In this document: in pieces, positions 2,725 to 37,846 of the stretch
How the letters are laid out: the number at the start of each line of letters is the position of its first letter
Position numbering within the stretch: the first letter of the stretch is position 1
From: Anaerolineae bacterium
Lineage (GTDB): Bacteria > Chloroflexota > Anaerolineae > Anaerolineales > RBG-16-64-43
Reading direction: 5' to 3'
Length of the DNA stretch: 41,784 nucleotides
NCBI GenBank assembly: GCA_003141675.1
Contig: PLND01000022.1
Coordinates: 15,057 to 56,840, forward strand
Made by a program: the position numbers and the translations under genes
Notes under the pieces: model-generated
The model's input: only the letters and a program-made list of their open reading frames with translations
The model's database searches: none
What the model was told of the DNA's origin: nothing

Positions 2725-4653
2725 ATGGCGTTGGAAATTGGATATTTATTATATGGACGATACCGGATCGAATCGGTCCTTGGGCGCGGCGGAATGGGAT
2801 CGGTGTATCAAGCGCTAGATGAAAATCTTGGCATCCAGGTTGCGGTCAAAGAGAACTTTTTTACCAACGAAGAATCCGCGCGGCAATTCCGCCGCGAGGC
2901 GACAATTTTGGCCACCTTGCGCCACCCCAACCTTCCGCGGGTTACCGACCACTTCGTCATCGCCGGGCAGGGCCAGTATCTCGTCATGGATTTCATTGAC
3001 GGCGAAGATCTTCAATCGAAGATCGAAAATGGAGGCCTTTCCGACGAAAAGCTCGTTGTAGCATGGGCGCGCCAAATTTGCGACGCACTCCAATACCTGC
3101 ACAACCAGCACCCACCGGTGTTGCATCGGGATGTCAAACCGGGCAACATCCGCCTTACCCCGGACGGCCGCGCGGTCCTGGTGGATTTCGGTTTGGCCCG
3201 GTTGATGGGAGGGAAGGCCACGACCACCGGAGCAAAAGCCACGACGGAAGGTTATTCTCCGCCGGAGCAATACGGATCCAGCAGCACCGACACTCGGACC
3301 GATATCTACGGCTTGGCGGCCACACTTTACACAATTTTGACCGGCAGCCAACCGCAAGACGGCTTGAAACGCGCGTTAGGAAAAGAAACGCTGACGCCCG
3401 TTCGCGCCCGGAATCCGAAAATATCGCCCGGCATCGCGGCAGCCATCGAGAAAGCCCTGGAGATTCTTCCCGAGAACCGGCAACAGACCATCGGCGAGTT
3501 CCAGAAAGCCCTCACCCTGGCCGTGCCGCCCGATGGACCATCCCGGGATGATTCCGCGCCGCCCGAGGAACCCGGAAAGATTTCCCGCACCCCTCGACGA
3601 TACGGTGGATTTCCGCTGGGATGGATTCTGACAATCGGAGCCCTGGCGTTGCTTGTTGTAGCCGGAGTTGTGATAGTTGCCCTTATTGGTTCCCAACATT
3701 TTGCGTCCCTGTTGTCATTTTCCTCCCCAACACCAACGCAAGCGAACACTGCCATATCGCTGGTCACGCCCAATACATCCGTTCCAACGGTCCTTCCGAC
3801 CGTTTTATCAACCCCTGTCGGAAATTCCGCCACGCTCGCTTTTGTCTCGGACCGGTCCGGCATTCCACAAATTTATTCCATGGATATCGACGGAAAGAAT
3901 TTACAGCAGATCACCAATCAATCGGAAGGAGCCTGTCAGCCGGATTGGTCGCCGGATGGGAAGCAATTAGTTTTTATCTCGCCTTGTGAGTCCATCGACG
4001 GACCATATTCCAAGGCGTCCATTTTCCGGATCGACGCGGACGGATCCGGACAGACCTTATTAACCAAGATGCCCGGCGGCGATTACTTTCCTGCCTGGTC
4101 GCCGGATGGCAAATTGATTGCCATGACATCGCTTCAAGACAAGCGTCAGCATATTTACGTGATGGATTCGAACGGAGATAACCGGGTCTCCATCAGCCCG
4201 ACGGGAGCGGTCGACTATCAGCCGCGATGGTCTCCGGATGGAAAACGGATTGTGTTTATTTCCGAACCCGGCGACCGGTCGGTTGTGTTTATCGAAAATA
4301 TCGATCCGGTGAATTTACATCGGATCGAGTTTTCCACCGTATCCGATCCCACCGCGAGCCCCGACTGGTCGGTCGATAATTACATTCTGTATGTCCTGAG
4401 ATCGCGCGGCCAGCTCGTCTTTTATAATGTCGACCAGCGGTTCACCCAAAACGAACTCACTCCTGCGGGTCAAGGAACCACGACCGCCAGATTCTCCCCG
4501 GATGGGAAATGGATTCTGTTTGATAAGGTAGTTAAAAATAACCGTGATATTTATCTTCTCCCAATCGTTGGAGAAAAAATACCCCGCCGGATAACTTCCG
4601 ATCTTTCGATCGAAACCGACCCTGCCTGGCGGCCGATTCCCGCCGGATCCTGA
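2725..4653 (+). CDS. Ser/Thr protein kinase (PknB-like) with TM segment and C-terminal TolB/PD40 beta-propeller-like repeats (paralog A)
   Basis: GRGGMGSVYQ glycine loop, VAVKEN Lys, HRDVKPGNIRL, DFGLAR, GYSPPEQYG. TM at LGWILTIGALALLVVAGVVIVALIG, then repeated WSPDGK blades (DWSPDGKQLVF, AWSPDGKLIAM, RWSPDGKRIVF, RFSPDGKWILF). Confidence 0.92.
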   Translation: MALEIGYLLYGRYRIESVLGRGGMGSVYQALDENLGIQVAVKENFFTNEESARQFRREATILATLRHPNLPRVTDHFVIAGQGQYLVMDFIDGEDLQSKIENGGLSDEKLVVAWARQICDALQYLHNQHPPVLHRDVKPGNIRLTPDGRAVLVDFGLARLMGGKATTTGAKATTEGYSPPEQYGSSSTDTRTDIYGLAATLYTILTGSQPQDGLKRALGKETLTPVRARNPKISPGIAAAIEKALEILPENRQQTIGEFQKALTLAVPPDGPSRDDSAPPEEPGKISRTPRRYGGFPLGWILTIGALALLVVAGVVIVALIGSQHFASLLSFSSPTPTQANTAISLVTPNTSVPTVLPTVLSTPVGNSATLAFVSDRSGIPQIYSMDIDGKNLQQITNQSEGACQPDWSPDGKQLVFISPCESIDGPYSKASIFRIDADGSGQTLLTKMPGGDYFPAWSPDGKLIAMTSLQDKRQHIYVMDSNGDNRVSISPTGAVDYQPRWSPDGKRIVFISEPGDRSVVFIENIDPVNLHRIEFSTVSDPTASPDWSVDNYILYVLRSRGQLVFYNVDQRFTQNELTPAGQGTTTARFSPDGKWILFDKVVKNNRDIYLLPIVGEKIPRRITSDLSIETDPAWRPIPAGS

Positions 4654-4977: not shown

Positions 4978-5070
4978 CATCGCTCCAAAACGAGGTTCCA
5001 ACTTCAAAAGCGCATCCGGGAAAGCCTGCATTCAACGCACCGGTTTCGTCGCGGGTTGGTCGAGGATAAG

Positions 5071-7116
5071 ATGGCGCTGGAAAAGGGATATTTATTATAC
5101 GGACGTTATCGGATCGAATCCGTTCTGGGACGCGGCGGAATGGGATCGGTCTATCAGGCTTTGGATGAAAACCTCGGCATCCAGGTCGCCGTCAAAGAGA
5201 ATTTATTTACCACCGAAGAATACGCGCGCCAATTCCGCCGTGAAGCGACGATTTTAGCGAGCCTGCGCCACTCAAATCTCCCTCGGGTTACGGACCATTT
5301 CGTCATTGCCGGGCAAGGTCAGTACCTAGTAATGGATTTCATCGAAGGCGAAGACCTCCGGTCGAGGATCGATAAAGGTAATCTTCCCAACGAGAGGCAA
5401 ACAGTTGACTGGGCGCGCCAAATTTGCGATGCGTTGCATTATCTGCACAACCGGCAACCCCCCGTCGTGCATCGGGATATTAAGCCGGGGAACATCCGCA
5501 TCACCCCCGATGGACGCGCGGTCCTGGTGGATTTCGGCCTGGCCCGGTTGATGGAAGGACCAACCACGACCACCGGAGCAAAAGCCATGACGCCGGGCTA
5601 TTCTCCGCCGGAACAATATGGCGCCAGCCGTACCGACGCGCGAACCGACATCTACGCTTTGGCAGCCACCATGTATACCCTGCTGACCGGAAGCATGCCG
5701 GAGGATGGTCTGGAAAGAGCGTTGGGGCAGAAATCGCTGACACCGATCCGCACCCGGAATCCGAAAGTTTCGGGTGCCGTTGCTGCAGCCATCGAGAAAG
5801 CATTGGAGGTTCTCCCGGAGAACCGCTATCAGGTTATCGGTGATTTCCAGAAGGCTCTCACACTCGCGTTGCCTCCCGCCGTGTCAACACCGGCCGTATC
5901 CGCGTTACCCAAGAAACCAGAAGTTGTTACAGCCGCCGTGCCTTCGAAACAACCGGCTCTTCCACCGAAAAAACCGGCCGCACGCGCGCCCCAACCATCC
6001 CGTAGATTTCCGCTGGGTTGTGCGCTGGTGATCGGATTCCTGGCGCTTTTGGCCGTCGCGGGAGGGTTGGCGTTTGCATTCATCGGACCGGAGAATATCC
6101 TGGCTTCCCTACGATCAATTTCCAACCCGACCCCGACCTTTTCCATCAGCGGGCGAACGGAAACGGCACTGCTTCCCACGATAACTATCGCCCCGACGCA
6201 AGCTTTGACTAGCCTACCGATTGGTAGAACGGATACTCCCATCCCGACCGTCACTCCAACCGCCGTCAACACTCCCCTCGGAAAATCCAGGATGATCGCG
6301 TTTGTCTCCGATCGAATGGGGATACCGCAAATATTTTCAATGGATCTGGAAGGAGGGGACGTCCAGCAAATCACAAACGAGGCGGAAGGAGCATGCCAGC
6401 CGGATTGGTCGCCCGACGGGGTGCAACTGGTGTTCACTTCCCCCTGCAAGTCCCTCGACGGTCCCTATATCAAAACTTCAATCTTCCGGATAAACGCCGA
6501 CGGATCCGGACGGACGTCACTCACCAAGGTCCCCGGCGGTGATTTCGATCCTGCCTGGTCGCCGGACGGCAAGTCCCTCGTTGTGACATCGTTGCAGGAC
6601 GGCCGTCAGCACATTTATTTGATGGATTCGAATGGAGATAACCGCCGCTCCCTCAGCATCTCCGGCGGAGTCGACTCTCAACCTAGATGGTCGCCGGATG
6701 GAACGCATATCGTGTTTATTTCCTCCGTCGGCGACCGCTCGATCGTCTTTCTCGAATACGCCGATCCGTCGAATTTTCTCCAGACTCGGACCGAATTCTC
6801 CACGGTGACATATACCACCGCGAGCCCCGACTGGTCGGTCGACAATTACATCCTTTACGTCCTGGCGTCCCACGGGCAGGTCGTCATTTACAAGGAAGAC
6901 TCACGGTTCAATCAAATTCCTCTCAGTTCGGCGTATCAGGGCACTACCGTCGCCAGATTCTCCCCAGATGGGCAATGGGTCATATTCGACATGACCATCA
7001 AGCAGAATCGCGACATTTACCTTCTCCCCATCGTCGGGGCGGCGGAACCCCGCCGGATCACGACCGACCGTTCGATCGAAACCGACCCCGCATGGCGGCC
7101 GATCCCCGCCGCGTGA
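5071..7116 (+). CDS. Ser/Thr protein kinase with TolB/PD40 repeats (paralog B of tandem duplication)
   Basis: Near-identical kinase domain to 2725..4653 (LEKGYLLYGRYRIESVLGRGGMGSVYQALDENLGIQVAVKEN...). ATG at 5071 preferred, being homologous to the kinase A start with the same GAGGATAAG context; the listed 5056 GTG is 5 codons upstream. Confidence 0.92.
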   Translation: MALEKGYLLYGRYRIESVLGRGGMGSVYQALDENLGIQVAVKENLFTTEEYARQFRREATILASLRHSNLPRVTDHFVIAGQGQYLVMDFIEGEDLRSRIDKGNLPNERQTVDWARQICDALHYLHNRQPPVVHRDIKPGNIRITPDGRAVLVDFGLARLMEGPTTTTGAKAMTPGYSPPEQYGASRTDARTDIYALAATMYTLLTGSMPEDGLERALGQKSLTPIRTRNPKVSGAVAAAIEKALEVLPENRYQVIGDFQKALTLALPPAVSTPAVSALPKKPEVVTAAVPSKQPALPPKKPAARAPQPSRRFPLGCALVIGFLALLAVAGGLAFAFIGPENILASLRSISNPTPTFSISGRTETALLPTITIAPTQALTSLPIGRTDTPIPTVTPTAVNTPLGKSRMIAFVSDRMGIPQIFSMDLEGGDVQQITNEAEGACQPDWSPDGVQLVFTSPCKSLDGPYIKTSIFRINADGSGRTSLTKVPGGDFDPAWSPDGKSLVVTSLQDGRQHIYLMDSNGDNRRSLSISGGVDSQPRWSPDGTHIVFISSVGDRSIVFLEYADPSNFLQTRTEFSTVTYTTASPDWSVDNYILYVLASHGQVVIYKEDSRFNQIPLSSAYQGTTVARFSPDGQWVIFDMTIKQNRDIYLLPIVGAAEPRRITTDRSIETDPAWRPIPAA

Positions 7117-17447: not shown

Positions 17448-18782
17448 TTGGCTAATCCAGTGTCCGCAGCTCGAACCACCGAGACGGGGCCCCGTTTCTC
17501 TCCGACCGTTGTCACCCGGGTTGAAGACACCGGACTCTCCTCGTTATGGCTGCAGGATCTGGCCCTAAAGATTTTCTATTTCCGCGGCTATCTCACCGGG
17601 TTCCGGGTGGCCGAGTTGATGGCGCTATCCTTCACGGGGATCGTGGACCTGATTCTGGAAGCCCTCAAGAGGGACAAGTTGATCGAGGTGAAATCCCAGA
17701 CCGGGATCGGCGACGGCGCCTACCAATACGCTATCACCGGACAGGGAATGATACGCGCCCGGGAAGCGTTGGATCGCAGTCAATATGCCGGCCCCGCGCC
17801 GGTTCCCCTCAGCGACTACAACGCGGCGATCCGCAAGCAGGCCCGCGCGCGCCCGACGGTGAATTCCCGCGTAATGCACACCTGCCTGCAGGCATTGACG
17901 CTTTCGGAAACAACCTTTTCGAGAATCGGCCCGGCCGTCAATTCCGGCACGTCAATTTTTCTCTACGGCCCTCCGGGAAACGGCAAGACAACGATTGCGA
18001 GGTCTATCGGCGATTTGATTCTCCAGGAAGAAATGTACATCCCCTACGCTCTGGATGTGGAAGGGCATGTTGTCAAACTTTATGATTCGGTTAATCACGC
18101 CCTGGTGCCTGAGGAGGATGCTTCCAGCTCCCAATCCACAAGCAACGTCCAGAAAAGCAGCAGCAAACGCGACCCCCGTTGGGTACGCATCCGCCGCCCG
18201 TTCATAATGGTGGGCGGTGAATTAACCCTGGCCGGTTTAGACCTCGTTTTCAACGATGTCCAGAAATATTATGAAGCCCCGTTCCAGGTCAAAGCCAACG
18301 GAGGAATTCTGCTGATCGATGATTTCGGCCGGCAGCAGGTGCGCCCCCGGGACCTCCTCAACCGCTGGATCGTCCCCTTGGAAAATAGAATCGATTATCT
18401 GACCTTGCATACCGGGCAGAAGATTGAAGTTCCCTTCGACGTGATGGTGGTCTTCTCCACCAACCTCCCGCCCAAAGACCTTGTCGACGAAGCCTTCCTG
18501 CGCCGGCTGCGGCATAAAATCGAAGTGGTGGATCCAACATTCGACGAATACCGTGAGATTTTCAAACGGGTTGCCGAATCGAAGGGCGTCACCTACAACG
18601 ATCAAGGCCTGGCGTATCTGATCCAGGAGTATTACATCAAAACCAACCGCAAGCCCCGGGCGTCGCATCCGCGCGATCTTTGCGATCAAATCATCGACAT
18701 CGGACGGTATATGGGCACGGAACCCACTATGACGAAGGACCTTATCGATCGCGCGACGCAATCCTATTTCGTTGAATTGTAG
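17448..18782 (+). CDS. AAA-family ATPase of unassigned function with N-terminal winged-helix-like region
   Basis: Walker A LYGPPGNGKTT, Walker B GGILLIDDFGR, sensor-like VVFSTN. N-terminal 110 aa resembles a helix-turn-helix/winged-helix segment (by eye only). Confidence 0.75.
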   Translation: MANPVSAARTTETGPRFSPTVVTRVEDTGLSSLWLQDLALKIFYFRGYLTGFRVAELMALSFTGIVDLILEALKRDKLIEVKSQTGIGDGAYQYAITGQGMIRAREALDRSQYAGPAPVPLSDYNAAIRKQARARPTVNSRVMHTCLQALTLSETTFSRIGPAVNSGTSIFLYGPPGNGKTTIARSIGDLILQEEMYIPYALDVEGHVVKLYDSVNHALVPEEDASSSQSTSNVQKSSSKRDPRWVRIRRPFIMVGGELTLAGLDLVFNDVQKYYEAPFQVKANGGILLIDDFGRQQVRPRDLLNRWIVPLENRIDYLTLHTGQKIEVPFDVMVVFSTNLPPKDLVDEAFLRRLRHKIEVVDPTFDEYREIFKRVAESKGVTYNDQGLAYLIQEYYIKTNRKPRASHPRDLCDQIIDIGRYMGTEPTMTKDLIDRATQSYFVEL

Positions 18783-20812: not shown

Positions 20813-23800
20813 ATGACGGAGATTGCCCTTCGCACCTATAACCAGGAAATCAAAGACCTCATCGATCACGGCCATTTTGATGAGGCGATTGCGCATTGCC
20901 AGCACGTTCTGGAGACGTTCCCGCGCCATATCGAGACCTACCGGCTTCTGGGAAAGGCCTTCCTGGAGCAGGGCCGGCACGGAGATGCGGCGGATGTTTT
21001 TCAACGGGTGCTGTCAGCCATTCCCGAAGACTGGCTGTCCCACGTGGCGATGGCTATCGTCCGGGAAGATGAAAGTAACCTCGATATGGCCATCTGGCAC
21101 ATGGAGCGGGCGTACGAAGTCAACCCATCCAATACGACAGTGCAACAGGAAGTACGAAGGCTGCGCGGACGCCGCGACGGCGTGGAGCCCCCGAAGCTTC
21201 GGCTGACCCGCTCCGCGTTGGCGCGCATGTATATCAAAGGTGGGTTATTCGGCCAGGCGATCGCGGAGATTCGAAGCGCCCTGGTGGAAGATCCTGAACG
21301 ACCCGACCTGCAGACTCTTCTGGCTTCCGCGCTCTTTGATTCGGGCGCGGTTCAGGAAGCGACAGAGATTTGCAGCACAATATTGCAAAAACTTCCGTAT
21401 TGCCTGGAAGCCAACCGGATTCTGGGTTTGGCGCTATGGGCGTCCGACAAGAAAGAGGACGCGGAAAAGCTGTTTCAAAGATTGGAATCCCTTAACCCGT
21501 ATATTGATATCGACGCCCTCAAGAAAGATAAAAGGATTCAAGAACATCCCGGGCAATCCATCACCTTGACGAGAATCGAGTGGGAGCAGCAGGAAAAAAC
21601 GGTTAGTTCAAAACAACCCGCCTGGGCTTCCTCTCTCGGTTTGAAAATTGAAGAACCCCAAAAAGGGCGCCAGGCGATTCCGGATTGGCTGGCAACCGCG
21701 TCACACCCTGCCGCCCCCGCGGCGCCCGCAACCCCGGAGGCGTCACCATTTGGCGGGCCAACCCCCTCCTGGTTCAATGATGCTGCCAACGCGATGGGAA
21801 CCGGGAAGCCTGCAGGGCTAAACCTGATTGAACCACAGAACGCACCTGCCGAGCCCGCTGCAGCACCCGCGGTGAAAACCGGCACAGGCGAATTACCGGA
21901 TTGGATCAAGACGCAAACCAACGCCGTTGAACCATCACAGGCGGAAAAACCATCGAGTCCCCTCCCAGACTGGCTGGCAGCGCCGTTGATGCCTTCGGCG
22001 CCGACTCCCGAATCGATCACTCCGACAGTGGAAAGCACCCTGCCGGATTGGATCAGAACCGTCGCTCCCGCCTCCACCACTCCTGCGGAAGAGATTTCCG
22101 GAATACCAGATTGGCTTTCACCCCCTGCATCCATAGAAGGGCTCCCGTCCTCCTCCCTTCCGGAATGGACCAAACCGGAGACAAAGACCGGACCTCTGGA
22201 GGCCGAGCCAGGAAATATTCCCGACTGGCTAAGTACTTCGAAACCGGCAAGTGTAGACGTCGGTTCGGAACCGGAATGGTTAAAACCGCCTCCGGCCGGC
22301 TCTACGTCGGATTTGATCCCGGAATGGATGAAAGGGGTTTCTCCTTCCGATTCATCCGCTTCGGCTTCACCTTCGATGGAAAGAGTTCCCGATTGGTTGC
22401 AGGAAAATCCGGCATCACAATCCAAACCGGTAGAAATCATTCCGGAATGGATGAGGGGCGAAAGCACTTCCACTCCTGACACTGGCAGAGAAAAACCGTC
22501 GACGCTTTTCGCTCCGGAAACGGACATTCCGGAATGGATGAAACCCGAACCCATGGAATCCCCCGCGGCAATCCAACCGCCGACTATTCAACCAGCAGAA
22601 TCTACATCCGCTGAACCGATTGCACCTCCGCAGACCTTTCAACCTTCAAACGATCAAGCGTACGTATCCGAGATCAGTCTTCCGGATTGGATGACTTCAC
22701 CCACACCATCGGCGCCAGTCGCACCCGCTCCAATTGCTCCGACGCCGGCTGCAGTGCCGGTTCAATCCATGGAAAGCGCTCCGGAGGCCGTACCTGATGT
22801 TACTTTGCCGGATTGGTTAAATGCTTCCCCTTCGCCGGCTCCTGCTGCCCCTGCGCCTATCCCTGCAACACCACCGCCAACTCCGCCATCGCCTGCACAA
22901 CCCATTGAGAACGCTCCGGAAGCAACTCCCGAAATCACCTTGCCGGATTGGTTGACAGCTATTTCTGCGCCGGCTCCCACAATATTTGCACCCTTACCTC
23001 CGACTCCGGCGCCGATACTGCCCCCACCTGTACAACCGGTTGAGGCCGCTCCGAAAGAAGCTTCTGAAGTTATCTTGCCGGATTGGCTGACAGCAGTCAA
23101 TCCACCGACTCCTTCAACGGTTGGGCCGACGCCTTTGACACCGGCGCCAATTCCGGCAGCTGTAGAGAGTGTTGAAACTCCGGCGGAGGCAATTCCCGAA
23201 ATTGCGTTGCCGGATTGGTTGAAGGCAGCCGCTCCATCGGCTCCAACCATTCCAACGCTAAAACCTGCTGCACCCGTTTCACCTCCGATTTCGACACAAC
23301 CTGCTTCGGCTCTATCGGCCGTTCAGCCTGCAGAAGAAATTCCTGCGGCTATTCCCGAGGTCAACCTACCGGATTGGATTAAATCGGCCACTCCGTCGGT
23401 CCCAGCCGCACCCACACCGGTTCCTTCTGTGCCGGTTGCTCTTCCAATCGCATCCAAACCCGTAAATGCCCCGGTCGCAGTGCAACCCGCGCCGGTATTA
23501 CCAACGTCCGCGGCTATCGAAGAACCTAAAAAGACAACGCCTCCCCCGGGACCCACCGCACCAACACCGATCAGTGAAGGAATCGATTTACCGGATTGGC
23601 TCATCGCACAACTTCATGGAAAACCTGTGGAGCCCGCACCGCCGCCAGCGGCCGCAAAACCCGCGGTACCGCTGCCCGATTGGCTAAAGCCGGCAACACA
23701 GAGTCCGGCATCTTCTCCGGTTGTTGATTGGGAAAAAGCCGCCGACCAAACGGTGCCTTCGTTACCGGCGGACGCAACGCGTCCAGCGACGGGTGCAGTT

Positions 23801-24994
23801 CCTCCGGCGGAAAAACCGGCAACTGGAGCTGGAGAGATCCCGGCCTGGTTGGATAAATCTAAACCGAGCGGAAATGAAACCGTAGCCCGCTGGCTCGATC
23901 GCAGACTGAAAACGTCGACCTTAAGCTCGTTGGAAGATGCTGTTTCAAAACCTGGATCCAAACCGCCGACGCAAACGCCTCCAGCGCGAGCCGCCCAAAG
24001 CTCGACCCAATTGCCCACTTGGTTGGACTCACAAAAACCGGGCGGGTCCGATACCGTGGTGCGATGGATGGATAAACGCGAAACAGGCTCTTTGCATCGA
24101 GAGCCGCAATCGGCGTTCGCTGATGCCGGAAAAGGGGCCTTCCCCACTGCTGAAGGAGCAACACCTGCAAAACCGGATACTCCTCCGGCTGTCGCTCCCG
24201 TTAAGGCACTCGTTCCTGCTCCCAGAACGGAAGATACGGGTGCTGCCAGGAAATCTACCATCCAAGACGTCACTCCAGTCCCTCAGCCTGGAATTGAATC
24301 GGCTCGCCCTTTGCAACCTGCGGCAGGGCCCGTTTCCTTCGCAAAGCCGGCCGAGCCGTTGATGCAGCCTCAACGTCCGGTTGCTCTCCCGCCGGCCCCA
24401 GTCGATGCCTCTCCAGAGGAGGAAGAAGAGGAGGGGGCTTTCGTGCCACCTCCGGAATGGCTGCAGAAGGCATTGGGAAACGCGGTGACGGACGTGCCAC
24501 CAAATCCCAAGGAACTGTTCCCCGTACCGGAACCGAGTAAATCGCAATCCTCACAGCCAATTCCGGCCGCGGAAAAAACCGCTGATATCCGATGGCAGAT
24601 TCAACCGGCTGAAGAGCCGGCTCCCATTTCGACCGCAAAGCCCACGGCATGGGTGCCGATTTCTCTCCCGCAGACAGTATCGGAGACACCCGTCAAACCG
24701 GTGAAGAAAGCTGTTAAGAAAAAAACGCGGAAATTAACGGATATCGAATCCGAAGCGTTAATCCGGGAAGCACGGGTTTATCTGGAAACCGATCTGAAGA
24801 AAGCTTGCGAAGTCTATCAACAAGTGATCGGGAATCCTGCAAACGCCGAAGTGGTAGCCAATGATCTCACATCCTACCTGGAACAGGATCCGGCTTCTCC
24901 GCAGCTCTGGAACCTTCTGGGTGATGCCTGCGGCCGCGCCGGCCGGTTCCAGGATGCCTACGGGGCTTATGCGGAAGCCTTGCGGAGAATGTAA
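20813..24994 (+). CDS. Giant TPR protein with Pro/Ala-rich [LIV]P[DE]W[LIM] repeat region and C-terminal TPR-like segment
   Basis: N-terminal TPR repeats (DHGHFDEAIAHCQHVLETFPRHIETYRLLGKAFLEQGRHGDAADVFQRVL...), about 23 P[DE]W-type motifs, C-terminal SEALIREARVYLETDLKKACEVYQQVIGNPANAEVVANDLTSYLEQDPASPQLWNLLGDACGRAGRFQDAYGAYAEALRRM. Confidence 0.85.
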   Translation: MTEIALRTYNQEIKDLIDHGHFDEAIAHCQHVLETFPRHIETYRLLGKAFLEQGRHGDAADVFQRVLSAIPEDWLSHVAMAIVREDESNLDMAIWHMERAYEVNPSNTTVQQEVRRLRGRRDGVEPPKLRLTRSALARMYIKGGLFGQAIAEIRSALVEDPERPDLQTLLASALFDSGAVQEATEICSTILQKLPYCLEANRILGLALWASDKKEDAEKLFQRLESLNPYIDIDALKKDKRIQEHPGQSITLTRIEWEQQEKTVSSKQPAWASSLGLKIEEPQKGRQAIPDWLATASHPAAPAAPATPEASPFGGPTPSWFNDAANAMGTGKPAGLNLIEPQNAPAEPAAAPAVKTGTGELPDWIKTQTNAVEPSQAEKPSSPLPDWLAAPLMPSAPTPESITPTVESTLPDWIRTVAPASTTPAEEISGIPDWLSPPASIEGLPSSSLPEWTKPETKTGPLEAEPGNIPDWLSTSKPASVDVGSEPEWLKPPPAGSTSDLIPEWMKGVSPSDSSASASPSMERVPDWLQENPASQSKPVEIIPEWMRGESTSTPDTGREKPSTLFAPETDIPEWMKPEPMESPAAIQPPTIQPAESTSAEPIAPPQTFQPSNDQAYVSEISLPDWMTSPTPSAPVAPAPIAPTPAAVPVQSMESAPEAVPDVTLPDWLNASPSPAPAAPAPIPATPPPTPPSPAQPIENAPEATPEITLPDWLTAISAPAPTIFAPLPPTPAPILPPPVQPVEAAPKEASEVILPDWLTAVNPPTPSTVGPTPLTPAPIPAAVESVETPAEAIPEIALPDWLKAAAPSAPTIPTLKPAAPVSPPISTQPASALSAVQPAEEIPAAIPEVNLPDWIKSATPSVPAAPTPVPSVPVALPIASKPVNAPVAVQPAPVLPTSAAIEEPKKTTPPPGPTAPTPISEGIDLPDWLIAQLHGKPVEPAPPPAAAKPAVPLPDWLKPATQSPASSPVVDWEKAADQTVPSLPADATRPATGAVPPAEKPATGAGEIPAWLDKSKPSGNETVARWLDRRLKTSTLSSLEDAVSKPGSKPPTQTPPARAAQSSTQLPTWLDSQKPGGSDTVVRWMDKRETGSLHREPQSAFADAGKGAFPTAEGATPAKPDTPPAVAPVKALVPAPRTEDTGAARKSTIQDVTPVPQPGIESARPLQPAAGPVSFAKPAEPLMQPQRPVALPPAPVDASPEEEEEEGAFVPPPEWLQKALGNAVTDVPPNPKELFPVPEPSKSQSSQPIPAAEKTADIRWQIQPAEEPAPISTAKPTAWVPISLPQTVSETPVKPVKKAVKKKTRKLTDIESEALIREARVYLETDLKKACEVYQQVIGNPANAEVVANDLTSYLEQDPASPQLWNLLGDACGRAGRFQDAYGAYAEALRRM
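22680..23400 (+). repeat. Degenerate in-frame tandem repeat, about 130 bp (~44 aa) per unit, six units
   Basis: LPDW occurrences near nt 22681, 22807, 22940, 23076, 23208, 23368. Unit approximates PEAxPEIxLPDWLxAxxPxAPxxxAPxPxTPxPxxxxVQPVE. Confidence 0.75.
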
Positions 24995-32149: not shown

Positions 32150-33223
32150 ATGCGACGCAGAATGATTTTGATTTTGGCCCTTTTAATCTTTGTTGTTGCC
32201 GGAGTTATTTATATCGTTTTCCAATACTTACCCTCGATTTCTTCCGGTGGAAATGCTGGAAAGACACCAACGCCAGCCGTGACAACTATGAATATCGTTT
32301 TCATCGCCCAAGACATACCCGCGGGCACATTGATCACGGAGGATAGTATCACTACGGGACCTTGGCCCAGCACCTATCCGCTGCCGGGTCTGGTGACGGA
32401 TAAGACACAGGTTGTTGGCAAGCGGGCGAGGATTGACCTTCGCCGCGGCGAACCGGTGTTCTCATCGCAATTAGTCGAAAGCGGGGCGAACGTTTCCGAC
32501 ACGGCCTCGGTAATGGCACTTAAAATCCATTCCGGCAAGGTGGCAATCGCGGTGCCCTTGAGCAGGCTTTCGGGGGTCGCTTACGGCATCGGAAATGGCG
32601 ACCATATTATGGTCGTCGCATCGTTTATGTTCATCAACCTAGATGCGAATTTCCAGACGGATATACCGAACCATATGCTCCTGTGCGGGCTTGACAAGGA
32701 CAATAAATTGACATGTGATGAGGTCAACGGCGGTCGGATATTCAAAGAATCCCCGCTCAGCGACGTTCTTCTGGCCACATACTTTGTCCCGGTTGAAGCC
32801 CAACGTCCGCGGATGACCAGCACAATTCTGGTTCAGGACGCCCGTGTTCTGAGCGTTGGGAACGCTAATTCGTCCGGCAGCGCGTCGGCTCCTGCAGCGG
32901 CGGCAACTCCCGCCGCAACCGGATCGCAAGCGTCCACCACGCCGGCGCAAACGTTATCAACGCCCGATATCCTCGTGATAGAAGTCTCCCCGGAAGAAGC
33001 CGTGGCGATTAACTTCCTGATCCGCATGCGCGCGGACCTTACATATGCTCTGCGTTCCGCTGGCGACACAACGGTATTCAGCATCCCCTCGATGGATCTG
33101 AAACGGCTGATGGACGATTTCAAGATCGACCTCCCGCCCAACCTTGCGTACGGCAGCGGCCAACGCGTGGACACTCCATTTATTCCCGTTCTGGGCAACG
33201 ATGTCGTCGTTCAGGTGAGGTAG
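32150..33223 (+). CDS. cpaB: Flp pilus assembly protein CpaB/RcpC
   Basis: N-terminal TM, SAF-like domain (VFIAQDIPAGTLITEDSITTGPWP...VVGKRARIDLRRGEPVFSSQLV), VAVPLSRLSGVAYGIGNGDHIMVV. Followed by cpaE/cpaF/tadBC. Confidence 0.9.
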   Translation: MRRRMILILALLIFVVAGVIYIVFQYLPSISSGGNAGKTPTPAVTTMNIVFIAQDIPAGTLITEDSITTGPWPSTYPLPGLVTDKTQVVGKRARIDLRRGEPVFSSQLVESGANVSDTASVMALKIHSGKVAIAVPLSRLSGVAYGIGNGDHIMVVASFMFINLDANFQTDIPNHMLLCGLDKDNKLTCDEVNGGRIFKESPLSDVLLATYFVPVEAQRPRMTSTILVQDARVLSVGNANSSGSASAPAAAATPAATGSQASTTPAQTLSTPDILVIEVSPEEAVAINFLIRMRADLTYALRSAGDTTVFSIPSMDLKRLMDDFKIDLPPNLAYGSGQRVDTPFIPVLGNDVVVQVR

Positions 33224-33230
33224 CGGGATC

Positions 33231-34469
33231 GTGGCTGATAAGATTCGCGTATTGATCGTTGACGATATTGCCGAAACCCGAGAGAACATTCGGCGACTGT
33301 TGCAATTCGAACGCGACATGGAAGTCGTGGGAGGCGCCCGCACCGGTAAGGAAGCCATTACCATGGCGCGGGATACTCAGCCGCATGTCGTCATCATGGA
33401 CATCAATATGCCGGACATGGACGGTATCACCGCGACAGAAGCCGTCCTGAAGGAACTTCCCAACACCCAAATCATCATCCTGTCCGTACAAAACGAACCC
33501 GATTATATGCGGCGCGCCATGCTGGCCGGTGCGAGGGATTTTTTGCCCAAACCACCTTCGGCCGACGAGTTGGTCAGCACAATTCGTAAAGTCGGTCAAC
33601 GGGCTCTGACGCAGGCGGCTATTGCGCCGAGCGTTCAAGGACCAGGAGCTCCCGTCAGCGCATCACCGGCGCATGGTGTTCACGGTAAAATCATCGTCGT
33701 ATACAGTCCCCGAGGCGGCGTCGGCAGGACCATGGTCTCCACAAATCTGGCGCTCGCCCTGCAAACCGAAGATACTCCTACGATCATCGTCGATGCTGCA
33801 CTTCAATTCGGCGATGTTGCGGCGTGTCTAAATCTGCAAACTCGGAACAGTCTCATCGACCTGGTGGATCAGGTGGGGGAACTGGACACCGAATTGGTGG
33901 ACCGCATCTCGGTTCATCATCCCTCCGGCTTGAAAGTCATCGCCGCGCCGGCAAGACCTGAGCAGGCCGAGGCCGTCCAGGGCCCGCAAGTGAGCAAAGT
34001 CCTCCGTTTTCTCGCCACGATGTTCCACTATGTGGTGGTCGACACCTCTTCCGCACTCAATGAATCCACGATCGGCGCGATCGATTCCAGCGATATTGTG
34101 GTCCTCATCGGTGCTCCGGACCTGCCGACGATAAAGAACTTGCGCATATTCTTCGAGTTGAGCGAAGCGCTGAATCTGACACCGCAAAAGATCGTTCTCA
34201 TCATGAACCGCATGGATAAACGCTATGGGATCTCGGCCGAAAAGGTGGCGGATTTATTGAAGCAGCCCATTCTGGCTCAGATTCCCCTCGACGATCGGGT
34301 AGTGCCACTCTCCACCAACAACGGTGAACCATTGATTCTACAGGATCGAACCAAACCAGTGGCTCGTGCCATTCTGGAGATGGCCCAGGCAATAAAAACC
34401 CGCTTGGCGGAAATCGCGCATTCCAATCAAGAGGAGAAGAAACCGGCTGCGGTCGCTAAGGTCCGTTGA
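33231..34469 (+). CDS. cpaE: CpaE/TadZ-type pilus assembly protein: REC domain + ParA/MinD-like ATPase
   Basis: VLIVDDIAETRENIRRLL, VVIMDINMPDMDG, then IIVVYSPRGGVGRTMVSTNLAL and VVVDTSSALNESTIGAIDSSDIVVLI. Confidence 0.9.
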   Translation: MADKIRVLIVDDIAETRENIRRLLQFERDMEVVGGARTGKEAITMARDTQPHVVIMDINMPDMDGITATEAVLKELPNTQIIILSVQNEPDYMRRAMLAGARDFLPKPPSADELVSTIRKVGQRALTQAAIAPSVQGPGAPVSASPAHGVHGKIIVVYSPRGGVGRTMVSTNLALALQTEDTPTIIVDAALQFGDVAACLNLQTRNSLIDLVDQVGELDTELVDRISVHHPSGLKVIAAPARPEQAEAVQGPQVSKVLRFLATMFHYVVVDTSSALNESTIGAIDSSDIVVLIGAPDLPTIKNLRIFFELSEALNLTPQKIVLIMNRMDKRYGISAEKVADLLKQPILAQIPLDDRVVPLSTNNGEPLILQDRTKPVARAILEMAQAIKTRLAEIAHSNQEEKKPAAVAKVR

Positions 34470-34499
34470 CACACCTTGCTACAGAAAGGAAGATAAACC

Positions 34500-35900
34500 G
34501 TGTCACTCCTTAAGAGAATTGAGCAAGGACAATCTCAGACGCCTCAACAGGAAGACCTCAGCGCGTCTCGGCTTGCCGAATTGCGATCCCGCCGCCCGGC
34601 ATCCCAATCTCCCGCCCAAGCCGGAACGCGCGATGCGTATTTCGATTTAAAAACCCGGGTCCAGAACAAATTATTGGGGGAACTGGATCCCTCGATGGAC
34701 GTCAACCGAACCGCGGAAGTTCGCCGCACAATCGAAGAACTTTTCGAGAACATCCTCGCCGAAGAAAGCATCGCCCTCTCCCGCGCCGAAAAGAAAAGGC
34801 TCTTTGAGGCGATTGTCGCAGAGATCCTCGGTTTTGGCCCCCTGGAACCCCTTTTGGCGGAGGAGGGGATTACTGAAATCATGGTCAACGGCTGCAAGAA
34901 CGTCTATATTGAGCGGAAGGGTAAAGTTGAGCGGGTCCCGGTAAGCTTCGAGAGCGACGAACACGTTATGCGTATTATCGACCGGATCGTCTCGCCTTTG
35001 GGCCGCCGGATCGACGAGTCAAGCCCATATGTCGACGCCCGCCTCCCGGACGGATCCCGCGTCAACGCGGTCATTCCGCCAATTTCACTTGTTGGCCCGG
35101 TACTGACAATCCGTAAATTCGCCAAAATCCCCATCACCGTCGACGATCTGATCCGATTTGGGAGTATCACCGCAGAGGCCATCGAATTCCTTAAGGCGTG
35201 TGTATCATCCCGGCTGAACGTAGTGATCTCCGGAGGTACCGGCTCGGGAAAAACTACCCTGCTGAACATCCTCTCCCAGTTCATTCCCGCTGACGAACGG
35301 ATCATTACCATCGAGAACGCGGCGGAATTACAGCTCCGCCAGGATCACGTCGTCTCCCTGGAATCCCGGCCTCCCAATATCGAAGGGCGGGGGGAAGTGA
35401 CCATTCGTGATCTCGTGGTCAATGCGTTGCGGATGCGCCCTGAAAGAATCGTGGTGGGAGAGGTGCGCGATGACGCCGCCTTGGACATGCTGCAGGCGAT
35501 GAACACCGGCCACGACGGTTCGATGACCACTTTGCACTCCAACAGCCCTCGCGATACGCTCTCCCGTCTGGAGACCATGGTCATGATGGCAGGAATGGAC
35601 CTTCCCTCAAGGGCCATCCGCGAGCAAATCGCCTCCGCCATCAATCTCATCGTTCATCAGGAAAGACTCCGGGACGGCACCCGACATATCACCTACATCA
35701 CCGAAGTGCAGGGTATGGAAGGCGATGTGATCACCATGACGGATTTATTCGTGTTTGAACAAACCGGCATTGAATCGGGGCGGGTCGTCGGACGCCTCCG
35801 GCCGACCGGTTTACGCCCGAAATTTATGGATCGAATCGAAGCTTCCGGGATTCACCTGCCCGCATCGGTGTTCGGCATCGGCGAGCGGTTGCGCTATTAA
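34500..35900 (+). CDS. cpaF: Tad secretion/pilus ATPase CpaF/TadA
   Basis: [105 protein letters not shown]. Confidence 0.97.
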
Positions 35901-35917
35901 ATCCGGAGAATAAAACT

Positions 35918-36883
35918 ATGTCTGTTTCGTTGATTTCCATTATCTTCGTCGCCGTCGCCGTCGGCCTGCTCCTGTTTGCCTTCCTCGGCTCGGGGGAATC
36001 CTCCGTCGAAGAGAGGCTAAGCCGCTATACGGAACTCTCCGCCCCGGTCGATACGGAATCCCCCAAGGAAGAAAAAGCCAAATCCTCCCCGATCACGGAT
36101 TATCTGGATCGATCCTTTTCCCAATCGGACTGGTTCGAGGGCATCTCCAAGGATCTGGCGCAGGCCGATCTGAAATTGCGTCCCACGGAATATATTTTTC
36201 TGATCGTGATCGCCAGCCTGGGAACCGGAGTGCTGGCGGGATTTCTTTTCGGTAGCATCATTTTTGGAGTGATCGGAGCGGTCGGAGGGATTTTTATTCC
36301 AGGGTTTTACGTCTCGCGAAAAAAAAATGGGCGCCTGCACCAATTCGAAGCCCAATTGGCGGACATGCTGAACTTGAGCGTGAACAGCCTGCGGGCCGGC
36401 TATTCGGTCATCCAGGCCCTTGAGTCGGTCTCCAAGGAAATGCCGAACCCCACCAATGTGGAAATTCGCCGCGTGGTACAGGAAGTCCAGATTGGCCTGA
36501 CGTTGGACACGGCTTTGGAAAATCTCCTCCGCCGGATGAGCAGCCCGGATTTAAAGCTCATCGTAACCGCAATTAATATTCAGCGCGAGGTCGGCGGCAA
36601 TCTGGCCGAAATTCTGGATACGATTTCCCACACCATCCGGGAACGGGTGAGGATCAAAGGCGAAATCCGGGTGCTAACCTCCCAACAGACCGTCACGGGT
36701 TATCTAATCGGTTTTTTGCCCTTCGCCCTGGCCGGCTTTTTGTATCTCGATAACCGGAAATATATTATGAGATTCTTTGATCCCGACACGCGCACCTGTG
36801 GCATTCCGATGGTCGTTTGCGGGTTGTTGCTGATCGTTTCCGGTTTCTTCATCATCAGCAAAATTGTGTCAATCGAAGTATAA
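35918..36883 (+). CDS. tadB: Tad membrane platform protein TadB
   Basis: T2SF-like: AQLADMLNLSVNSLRAGYSVIQALESVSKEMPNPTNVEIRRVVQEVQIGLTLDTALENLLRRM, ILDTISHTIRERVRIKGEIRVLTSQ. Confidence 0.93.
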   Translation: MSVSLISIIFVAVAVGLLLFAFLGSGESSVEERLSRYTELSAPVDTESPKEEKAKSSPITDYLDRSFSQSDWFEGISKDLAQADLKLRPTEYIFLIVIASLGTGVLAGFLFGSIIFGVIGAVGGIFIPGFYVSRKKNGRLHQFEAQLADMLNLSVNSLRAGYSVIQALESVSKEMPNPTNVEIRRVVQEVQIGLTLDTALENLLRRMSSPDLKLIVTAINIQREVGGNLAEILDTISHTIRERVRIKGEIRVLTSQQTVTGYLIGFLPFALAGFLYLDNRKYIMRFFDPDTRTCGIPMVVCGLLLIVSGFFIISKIVSIEV

Positions 36884-36892
36884 AGGGCAACC

Positions 36893-37846
36893 ATGTTGAT
36901 TTTCATCATTATTGGCGTCGTCATTCTGGGAGCAGCGCTTCTGGTCTATGCAGCCATTCGGATGCCGAAGGATGAGACCCCGCTGGATTCCCGGCTTTCC
37001 GAGTATGCAGGCCGCGATGTTCCAATCAGCCTGGAAGAGATCGAATTGCAGCAGCCATTCGCCGAACGGGTGATCCTCCCGCTGCTAAAAGGTGTCAGCG
37101 ATTTCGTCGTCCGGTTTACACCCGCCGCCAATATCCAGACGATCCAGGAAAAACTTAACATGGCGGGAAACCCCTGGGGAATGCAAGCCCCGGTATATTG
37201 GTCGCTGCAAATCATCTTTGCCGTTTTTTTCGGCGGGCTGTTGCTTTTCCTTTTCGTTTTCGGATCGATGAAGCTTCAGTGGTGGATGTCTCTAGGGCTG
37301 GTATTGCTGGGCGTGGTATTCGGTTACTTTTTTCCGCGATTATATTTGGACAGCCGGATCAGCAGACGGCAGAATAACATCCGCAAGGCGATGCCGGACG
37401 CCCTGGATCTGCTCACCATTTGCGTAGAAGCAGGCTTGGGATTCGATTCCGCCATGTCGAAAGTGAACGAAGAATGGGAAAATGAATTAAGCGCCGCGTT
37501 CGGGAGGGTGATCCAGGAAATCCGGCTCGGCAAGCTGCGACGCGACGCGTTAAAGGACATGGCCGAACGGGTTGGTCTTTCCGAAATGACGAGTTTCGTC
37601 GCGGCCGTAGTGCAATCGGAGCAATTGGGCGTCAGCATGTCCCGGGTATTGCGCATCCAGGCTGATCAAATGCGTCTGCGCCGGCGGCAACGGGCCGAAG
37701 AAAAAGCCCGTCAGGCGCCGGTAATCATGATGCTTCCACTGGTGTTTCTGATCTTTCCTTCGATCCTCATCGTGCTCCTCGGCCCCGCGGGGTTGATTCT
37801 CTTCACCTCCCCTGTCGGGAAGATGTTCTTTGGTGGTGGAATATAG
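36893..37846 (+). CDS. tadC: Tad membrane platform protein TadC
   Basis: MPDALDLLTICVEAGLGFDSAMSKV, GRVIQEIRLGKLRRDALKDMAERVGLSEMTSFVAAVVQSEQLGVSMSRVLRIQADQMRLRRRQRAEEKA. Confidence 0.93.
   Translation: MLIFIIIGVVILGAALLVYAAIRMPKDETPLDSRLSEYAGRDVPISLEEIELQQPFAERVILPLLKGVSDFVVRFTPAANIQTIQEKLNMAGNPWGMQAPVYWSLQIIFAVFFGGLLLFLFVFGSMKLQWWMSLGLVLLGVVFGYFFPRLYLDSRISRRQNNIRKAMPDALDLLTICVEAGLGFDSAMSKVNEEWENELSAAFGRVIQEIRLGKLRRDALKDMAERVGLSEMTSFVAAVVQSEQLGVSMSRVLRIQADQMRLRRRQRAEEKARQAPVIMMLPLVFLIFPSILIVLLGPAGLILFTSPVGKMFFGGGI

Follow-up and report, generated by a model that had tools for sequence, protein, structure and literature searches.

A conserved array of PDWL-type tryptophan motifs common to a bacterial TPR protein and an unrelated membrane protein of the Chloroflexota

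Why should a bacterial protein carry 23 copies of one short tryptophan motif along the linker between two TPR domains, and what might such an array bind? Arrays of short docking motifs are familiar from eukaryotes and, to our knowledge, little described in bacteria. The gene that raises this question lies in a 41,784-nucleotide stretch of DNA from an Anaerolineae bacterium (hereafter the window, whose numbering we use), where positions 20813-24994 of the forward strand form an uninterrupted, ATG-initiated open reading frame of 1393 codons for amino acids, the translated product of which we call T. Its features are as follows.

20813-24994, + strand: T protein, comprising an N-terminal TPR domain, a disordered box array and a C-terminal TPR domain (translation, Pfam, orthologs).
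20813-21586, + strand: N-terminal TPR domain, residues 1-258, ending with a conserved TRIEW (AlphaFold, secondary structure, ortholog alignment).
21617-21643, + strand: conserved, box-like QPxWAxSLG element immediately following the TPR domain, residues 269-277 (ortholog listing; Trp 271 near-invariant in the alignment).
21677-24469, + strand: 23 PxW[LIMT] boxes in a Pro/Ala-rich disordered linker, residues 289-1219 (translation, shuffling, box-versus-linker identity).
24710-24991, + strand: C-terminal TPR domain, residues 1300-1393 (Pfam, orthologs, AlphaFold model of the ortholog L130).

A sequence-only reading of this DNA had proposed TPR domains at both ends, a disordered spacer between them and no transmembrane segment, and each of these proposals held up. 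Pfam searches placed T among the TPR proteins, with TPR_16 scoring 77.5 bits against a cut-off of 32.7 and matches to this and other TPR models at both ends. AlphaFold models of T residues 1-410 (79 aligned sequences) and of the full-length, 831-residue ortholog L130 predicted TPR-like helical hairpins, with pLDDT of 92-98 over T residues 1-260 and mostly below 60 over the remainder of the modelled part, while in L130 both TPR domains were confident (about 97 for the C-terminal one) and nearly all of the region between them fell below 60. In T, the corresponding region is a Pro/Ala-rich disordered stretch of about 1000 residues. Because strands were predicted at residues 3-5 and 251-253, the TRIEW element is probably part of the N-terminal domain, the two strands presumably pairing with each other. 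The C-terminal TPR domain was present in 61 of the 64 complete orthologs, and the highest 19-residue Kyte-Doolittle mean in T was 1.11, which revealed no transmembrane segment. The closest solved structures to the TPR domains were designed TPRs and OGT, whereas no named family spanned the entire protein (NCBIfam matches were all far under cut-off) and a literature search found no published account of T or of a PDWL-type motif.

All 23 boxes listed from the sequence were found in T, with tryptophans at residues 292, 364, 387, 413, 434, 452, 472, 489, 505, 528, 546, 575, 626, 668, 713, 758, 802, 855, 929, 957, 1012, 1070 and 1216, and related elements occur beyond these (TPSWF at 320, QPAWASSLG at 271). 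A 1050-residue stretch of T contains 21 matches to P[DE]W[LIMT], whereas 20,000 shuffles of that stretch averaged 0.14 matches and never exceeded 3. The boxes had been described as regularly spaced, but their spacing is irregular, ranging from 16 to 146 residues, and no DNA tandem repeats were found across the gene. T has one mark of a multivalent short-motif scaffold, a repeated conserved motif carried by a disordered region. One sub-repeat is unlike the rest of the array, namely a pair of PxWLDxxKPxxxxTVxRW[LM]D elements at residues 1010-1030 and 1068-1088 (window 23840-24076), in which the Trp-Trp spacing is fixed at 15 residues.

Across the 64 complete orthologs, 1381 tryptophans gave the consensus [DE][DE](L/I/V)P(D/E)WL[KR]x(L/I/M), with acidic residues at -5 and -4, L/I/V at -3, P (63%) at -2, D/E (62%) at -1, L (63%) at +1, K/R enriched about 6-fold at +2 and L/I/M enriched at +4 (45%). 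In these same orthologs P[DEA]W[LIM] was observed 611 times against 8 expected, compared with 21 against 3.7 for its Phe counterpart. The motif matched 657 times in 87,550 residues of T versus 8 times in 307,165 residues of neighbouring genes. Between the window's T and a same-family ortholog (L063), the five-residue boxes were 87% identical and ungapped, close to the 91% identity of the N-terminal TPR domain, whereas the linkers were 44% identical and 15% gapped, a contrast slightly flattered by a possible preference of the aligner for pairing tryptophans. In the L130 AlphaFold model box positions were 68% helical versus 11% for the remaining linker, so that short helices are the predicted form of the boxes. 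One might suppose that the boxes have no reader of their own and are weak stickers of an aromatic kind, such that T (together with a second box-bearing protein, Z, described below) condenses via box-box contacts, and the numerous aromatic motifs along a long low-complexity linker, as well as the shortness of the predicted helices, would suit this. We consider it unlikely, however, because the Trp context is too specific, with P, D/E, L and a hydrophobic +4 residue conserved and Phe or Tyr seldom substituting, and because the five-residue boxes are conserved nearly like a folded domain.

When the window's own genome was searched with a strict DNA pattern, an 885-residue open reading frame, Z, came to light on another contig; it consists of a zinc ribbon, a low-complexity, box-bearing disordered region and a transmembrane domain. 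No further multi-box frames besides T and Z were seen among the matches listed for that pattern, though more box-bearing proteins may exist. A search of the same genome with Z as query did not recover T, yet Z carries T's boxes nonetheless, and the logo built from 301 tryptophans in 30 Z loci from the order was the same as T's. At the level of sequence we therefore show that the PDWL-type motif recurs in two non-homologous, unlinked proteins. Because the box region of Z follows the zinc ribbon and precedes the first of two hydrophobic stretches, which lie around residues 612-626 and 860-869, it is probably cytoplasmic. Z belongs to a conserved operon of six genes (L143:5617-13365 on contig C53 of the window's own genome) in the order DUF6754, membrane protein, Z, membrane protein, MutL/GlmL-like ATPase (PF13941) and a KOW-like protein, the last so named from a weak match. 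We take the ATPase to have an actin-like fold. The operon was seen in every class lineage read and is retained where Z is without boxes, so the boxes are dispensable for its basic role.

Evaluating T and Z together across 199 genomes of the class, we found that 89 have both, 18 have T without Z, 31 (including some in families f55 and f59) have Z without T and 61 have neither, for a co-occurrence odds ratio of 9.7 when relatedness is ignored. Box counts in the two proteins were correlated before any correction for phylogeny (Spearman 0.74 over 46 genomes and 0.70 over 26 families, leaving out G176, in which the T sequence is masked). By independent contrasts, however, the correlation was not significant (r=0.22, p=0.15), with just 1-2 independent pairs, and so we do not claim that T and Z lost their arrays in concert; one genome, G082, has boxes in Z and none in T. 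The case for a common reader consequently rests mainly on the shared motif.

What this evidence describes is a real, conserved array that a TPR scaffold of the cytoplasm has in common with a membrane protein. That so specific a motif occurs in two proteins unrelated to each other implies that a folded reader exists, and T and Z probably dock onto a common partner. We therefore favour, with moderate confidence, a reading in which T and Z both use their boxes to dock onto one shared type of folded reader, so that T acts as a multivalent scaffold able to be connected to a membrane protein. T would then be a cytoplasmic scaffold bearing an array of hydrophobic-P-[DE]-W-L-x-x-L docking boxes, each of which would fold into a one-to-two-turn helix upon its reader; the cytoplasmic boxes of Z would engage the same reader, and T, Z and reader would come together in a multivalent assembly capable of being kept at the membrane. 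That T is a scaffold is likely, while its membrane link and any condensate, like a single common reader that binds the helical form of the box, are steps that we infer. It had been suggested from the sequence that the array is a strand onto which many copies of a single partner dock, and the constraint on boxes over linkers agrees with this, but the motif is not private to T; its presence in Z makes it a shared motif rather than the property of one protein. Condensate formation, likewise suggested from the sequence, drew no support from our analyses.

The most likely candidate for the reader is T's own N-terminal TPR domain, though we put this forward only tentatively, and as a reader it would tie T molecules to one another and to Z. 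It comes first because it is well conserved, because a kinesin light chain TPR offers a precedent, and because R44, D73 and H96 go with the array: members with an array conserve them and most members without one, which are also more distant, do not, so that this contrast is confounded with phylogeny. In the models of T residues 1-410 and of L130, AlphaFold did not confidently dock most boxes in cis on either TPR domain; an IPDFLRQAGW element of L130 averaged 79. Otherwise the reader would be some other protein, such as the actin-fold MutL-like ATPase of the Z operon, and FtsA or SepF are further candidates.

These last candidates connect to another possibility, namely that the boxes imitate the C-terminal peptide of FtsZ, bind an FtsA- or SepF-type receptor and act in cell division. 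The peptide does resemble a box in its acidic lead-in, its L/I/V-P-x-aromatic-L core and its following basic residue, such that the FtsZ tails here read [DE]..[IVL]P[AT]FLR beside the L/I/V-P-[DE]-W-L-[KR] of the boxes; many T orthologs, moreover, have an IP[DE]FLR or IP[DE]WMRxAGW sequence early in the array, and an FtsA gene adjoins an FtsZ gene in the window's genome. Yet FtsZ tails have Phe and in no case Trp, whereas boxes almost always have Trp, the hydrophobic +4 residue of the boxes is missing from FtsZ, and the box -3 residue does not covary with its FtsZ counterpart between genomes. T also lacks a tubulin domain, and its boxes are internal and number in the tens, as opposed to the single [ILV]PxFLR that ends an FtsZ, which together make such mimicry improbable. 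The window's genome itself encodes two FtsZ proteins (L149 and L150, on contigs C34 and C12), both with FtsZ-type C-terminal peptides, and most relatives in the order likewise have two.

For a TPR domain that reads tryptophan beside acidic residues, the precedent is kinesin light chain, which recognises W-acidic cargo motifs in this way (PMC6214655, PMC5450233). T has a different consensus and no kinesin, and no kinesin light chain appeared among 36 sequence matches to solved structures. By analogy, the nearest working counterpart of T is the PEX5-PEX14 pair, in which PEX5, a TPR receptor, has a disordered part with eight WF-type motifs, some of them pre-helical, that are read by the membrane protein PEX14 (PMC8086558). 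PEX5 and T thus both have repeated, partly helical Trp motifs in a disordered region beside a TPR domain. They differ in that the PEX5 motif is WxxxF/Y, as opposed to hydrophobic-P-[DE]-W-L-x-x-L, and in that T is bacterial, has a TPR domain at both ends and shares its motif with Z, whereas PEX14 reads that of PEX5. Because the +4 residue of the boxes is rarely aromatic (F 2% and Y 1%, with L/I/M at 45%, over the 1381 tryptophans), T is not a PEX5, and the sequence relationship between them is that of generic TPRs, PEX5 structures having appeared solely among generic TPR matches. Carrying the analogy further, T might itself read the PDWL boxes of Z and of other T molecules and so build, in some of the Chloroflexota, a network that assembles itself and is tethered to the membrane, PEX5-PEX14-like in its workings and unrelated by descent, a proposal that we regard as doubtful.

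The same comparison invites the thought that the boxes are amphipathic membrane anchors, given that PEX5 WF motifs likewise contact membranes (PMC8086558), that the predicted Trp-containing helices are short and amphipathic, and that Z is a membrane protein. The acidic box flanks and an array net charge of -53 would nevertheless be unfavourable on anionic membranes, and insertion does not need a conserved Pro at -2 or Asp at -1, leaving us with little expectation that this is their role. One peptide becomes a concrete, testable handle on two uncharacterised gene families, as the product of a conserved gene found class-wide, mostly in single copy, repeats the motif tens of times and an unrelated, operon-borne membrane protein has it again; for a phylum whose cell biology is little known, a subcellular organiser could come to light.

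A profile of the N-terminal TPR domain matched 76 of 131 good genomes of the class, mostly with one copy each, and also matched other classes of the phylum at lower scores. The best 80 orthologs of T in a collection of named genomes were all from Chloroflexi, mostly Anaerolineae, and across the order the N-terminal domain was 51-71% identical to that of the window. Few or no boxes were found in a minority of class lineages (families f50, f56 and f32, and one f22 genome), and outside the class the 20 relatives examined had 0-2 strict boxes, with up to 7 loose boxes in a few. Array presence and absence required 9 changes on the TPR-domain tree. As array-less T proteins retain the N-terminal TPR domain, and several also the C-terminal one, the TPR domains have a role independent of an array in cis. 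Copy number ranges from 0 to about 30 boxes per T across genomes, as functionless drift or expansion of a low-complexity linker might produce, but conservation of the boxes, absence of DNA tandem repeats and recurrence of the motif in non-homologous Z render that explanation very hard to credit.

Arrays and linkers of relatives hold other elements as well. A 36-residue element, D(D/A)AFAWLESLAAKQGAxEETLLTKPEERxExPPEWV, was found in the arrays of 28 of the 64 complete orthologs (for example L125, L094 and L090) and was not seen in the window's T. The relatives L337-L344 from outside the class have frames of up to about 2100 residues with long linkers and no or few boxes, and several of them have PAWDExxW and SWQQP elements in common.

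Gene neighbourhood was uninformative as a clue to the function of T, for in other genomes its neighbours, named by eye, are housekeeping genes, with ndk downstream and an H+-pyrophosphatase, an RpoD-like sigma factor or a nucleoside phosphorylase upstream. Those in the window differ from these common ones and include an AAA ATPase and membrane glycosyltransferases. The AAA ATPase (17448-18782) is without a clear family, its weak best match, CdvC, falling far under cut-off. Elsewhere in the window, a Tad/Flp pilus-like set at 32150-37846 comprises RcpC/CpaB, a ParA-type protein with a receiver domain, T2SSE and two T2SSF, and two nearly adjacent serine/threonine kinases (2725-4653 and 5056-7116) both carry PD40 beta-propeller repeats.
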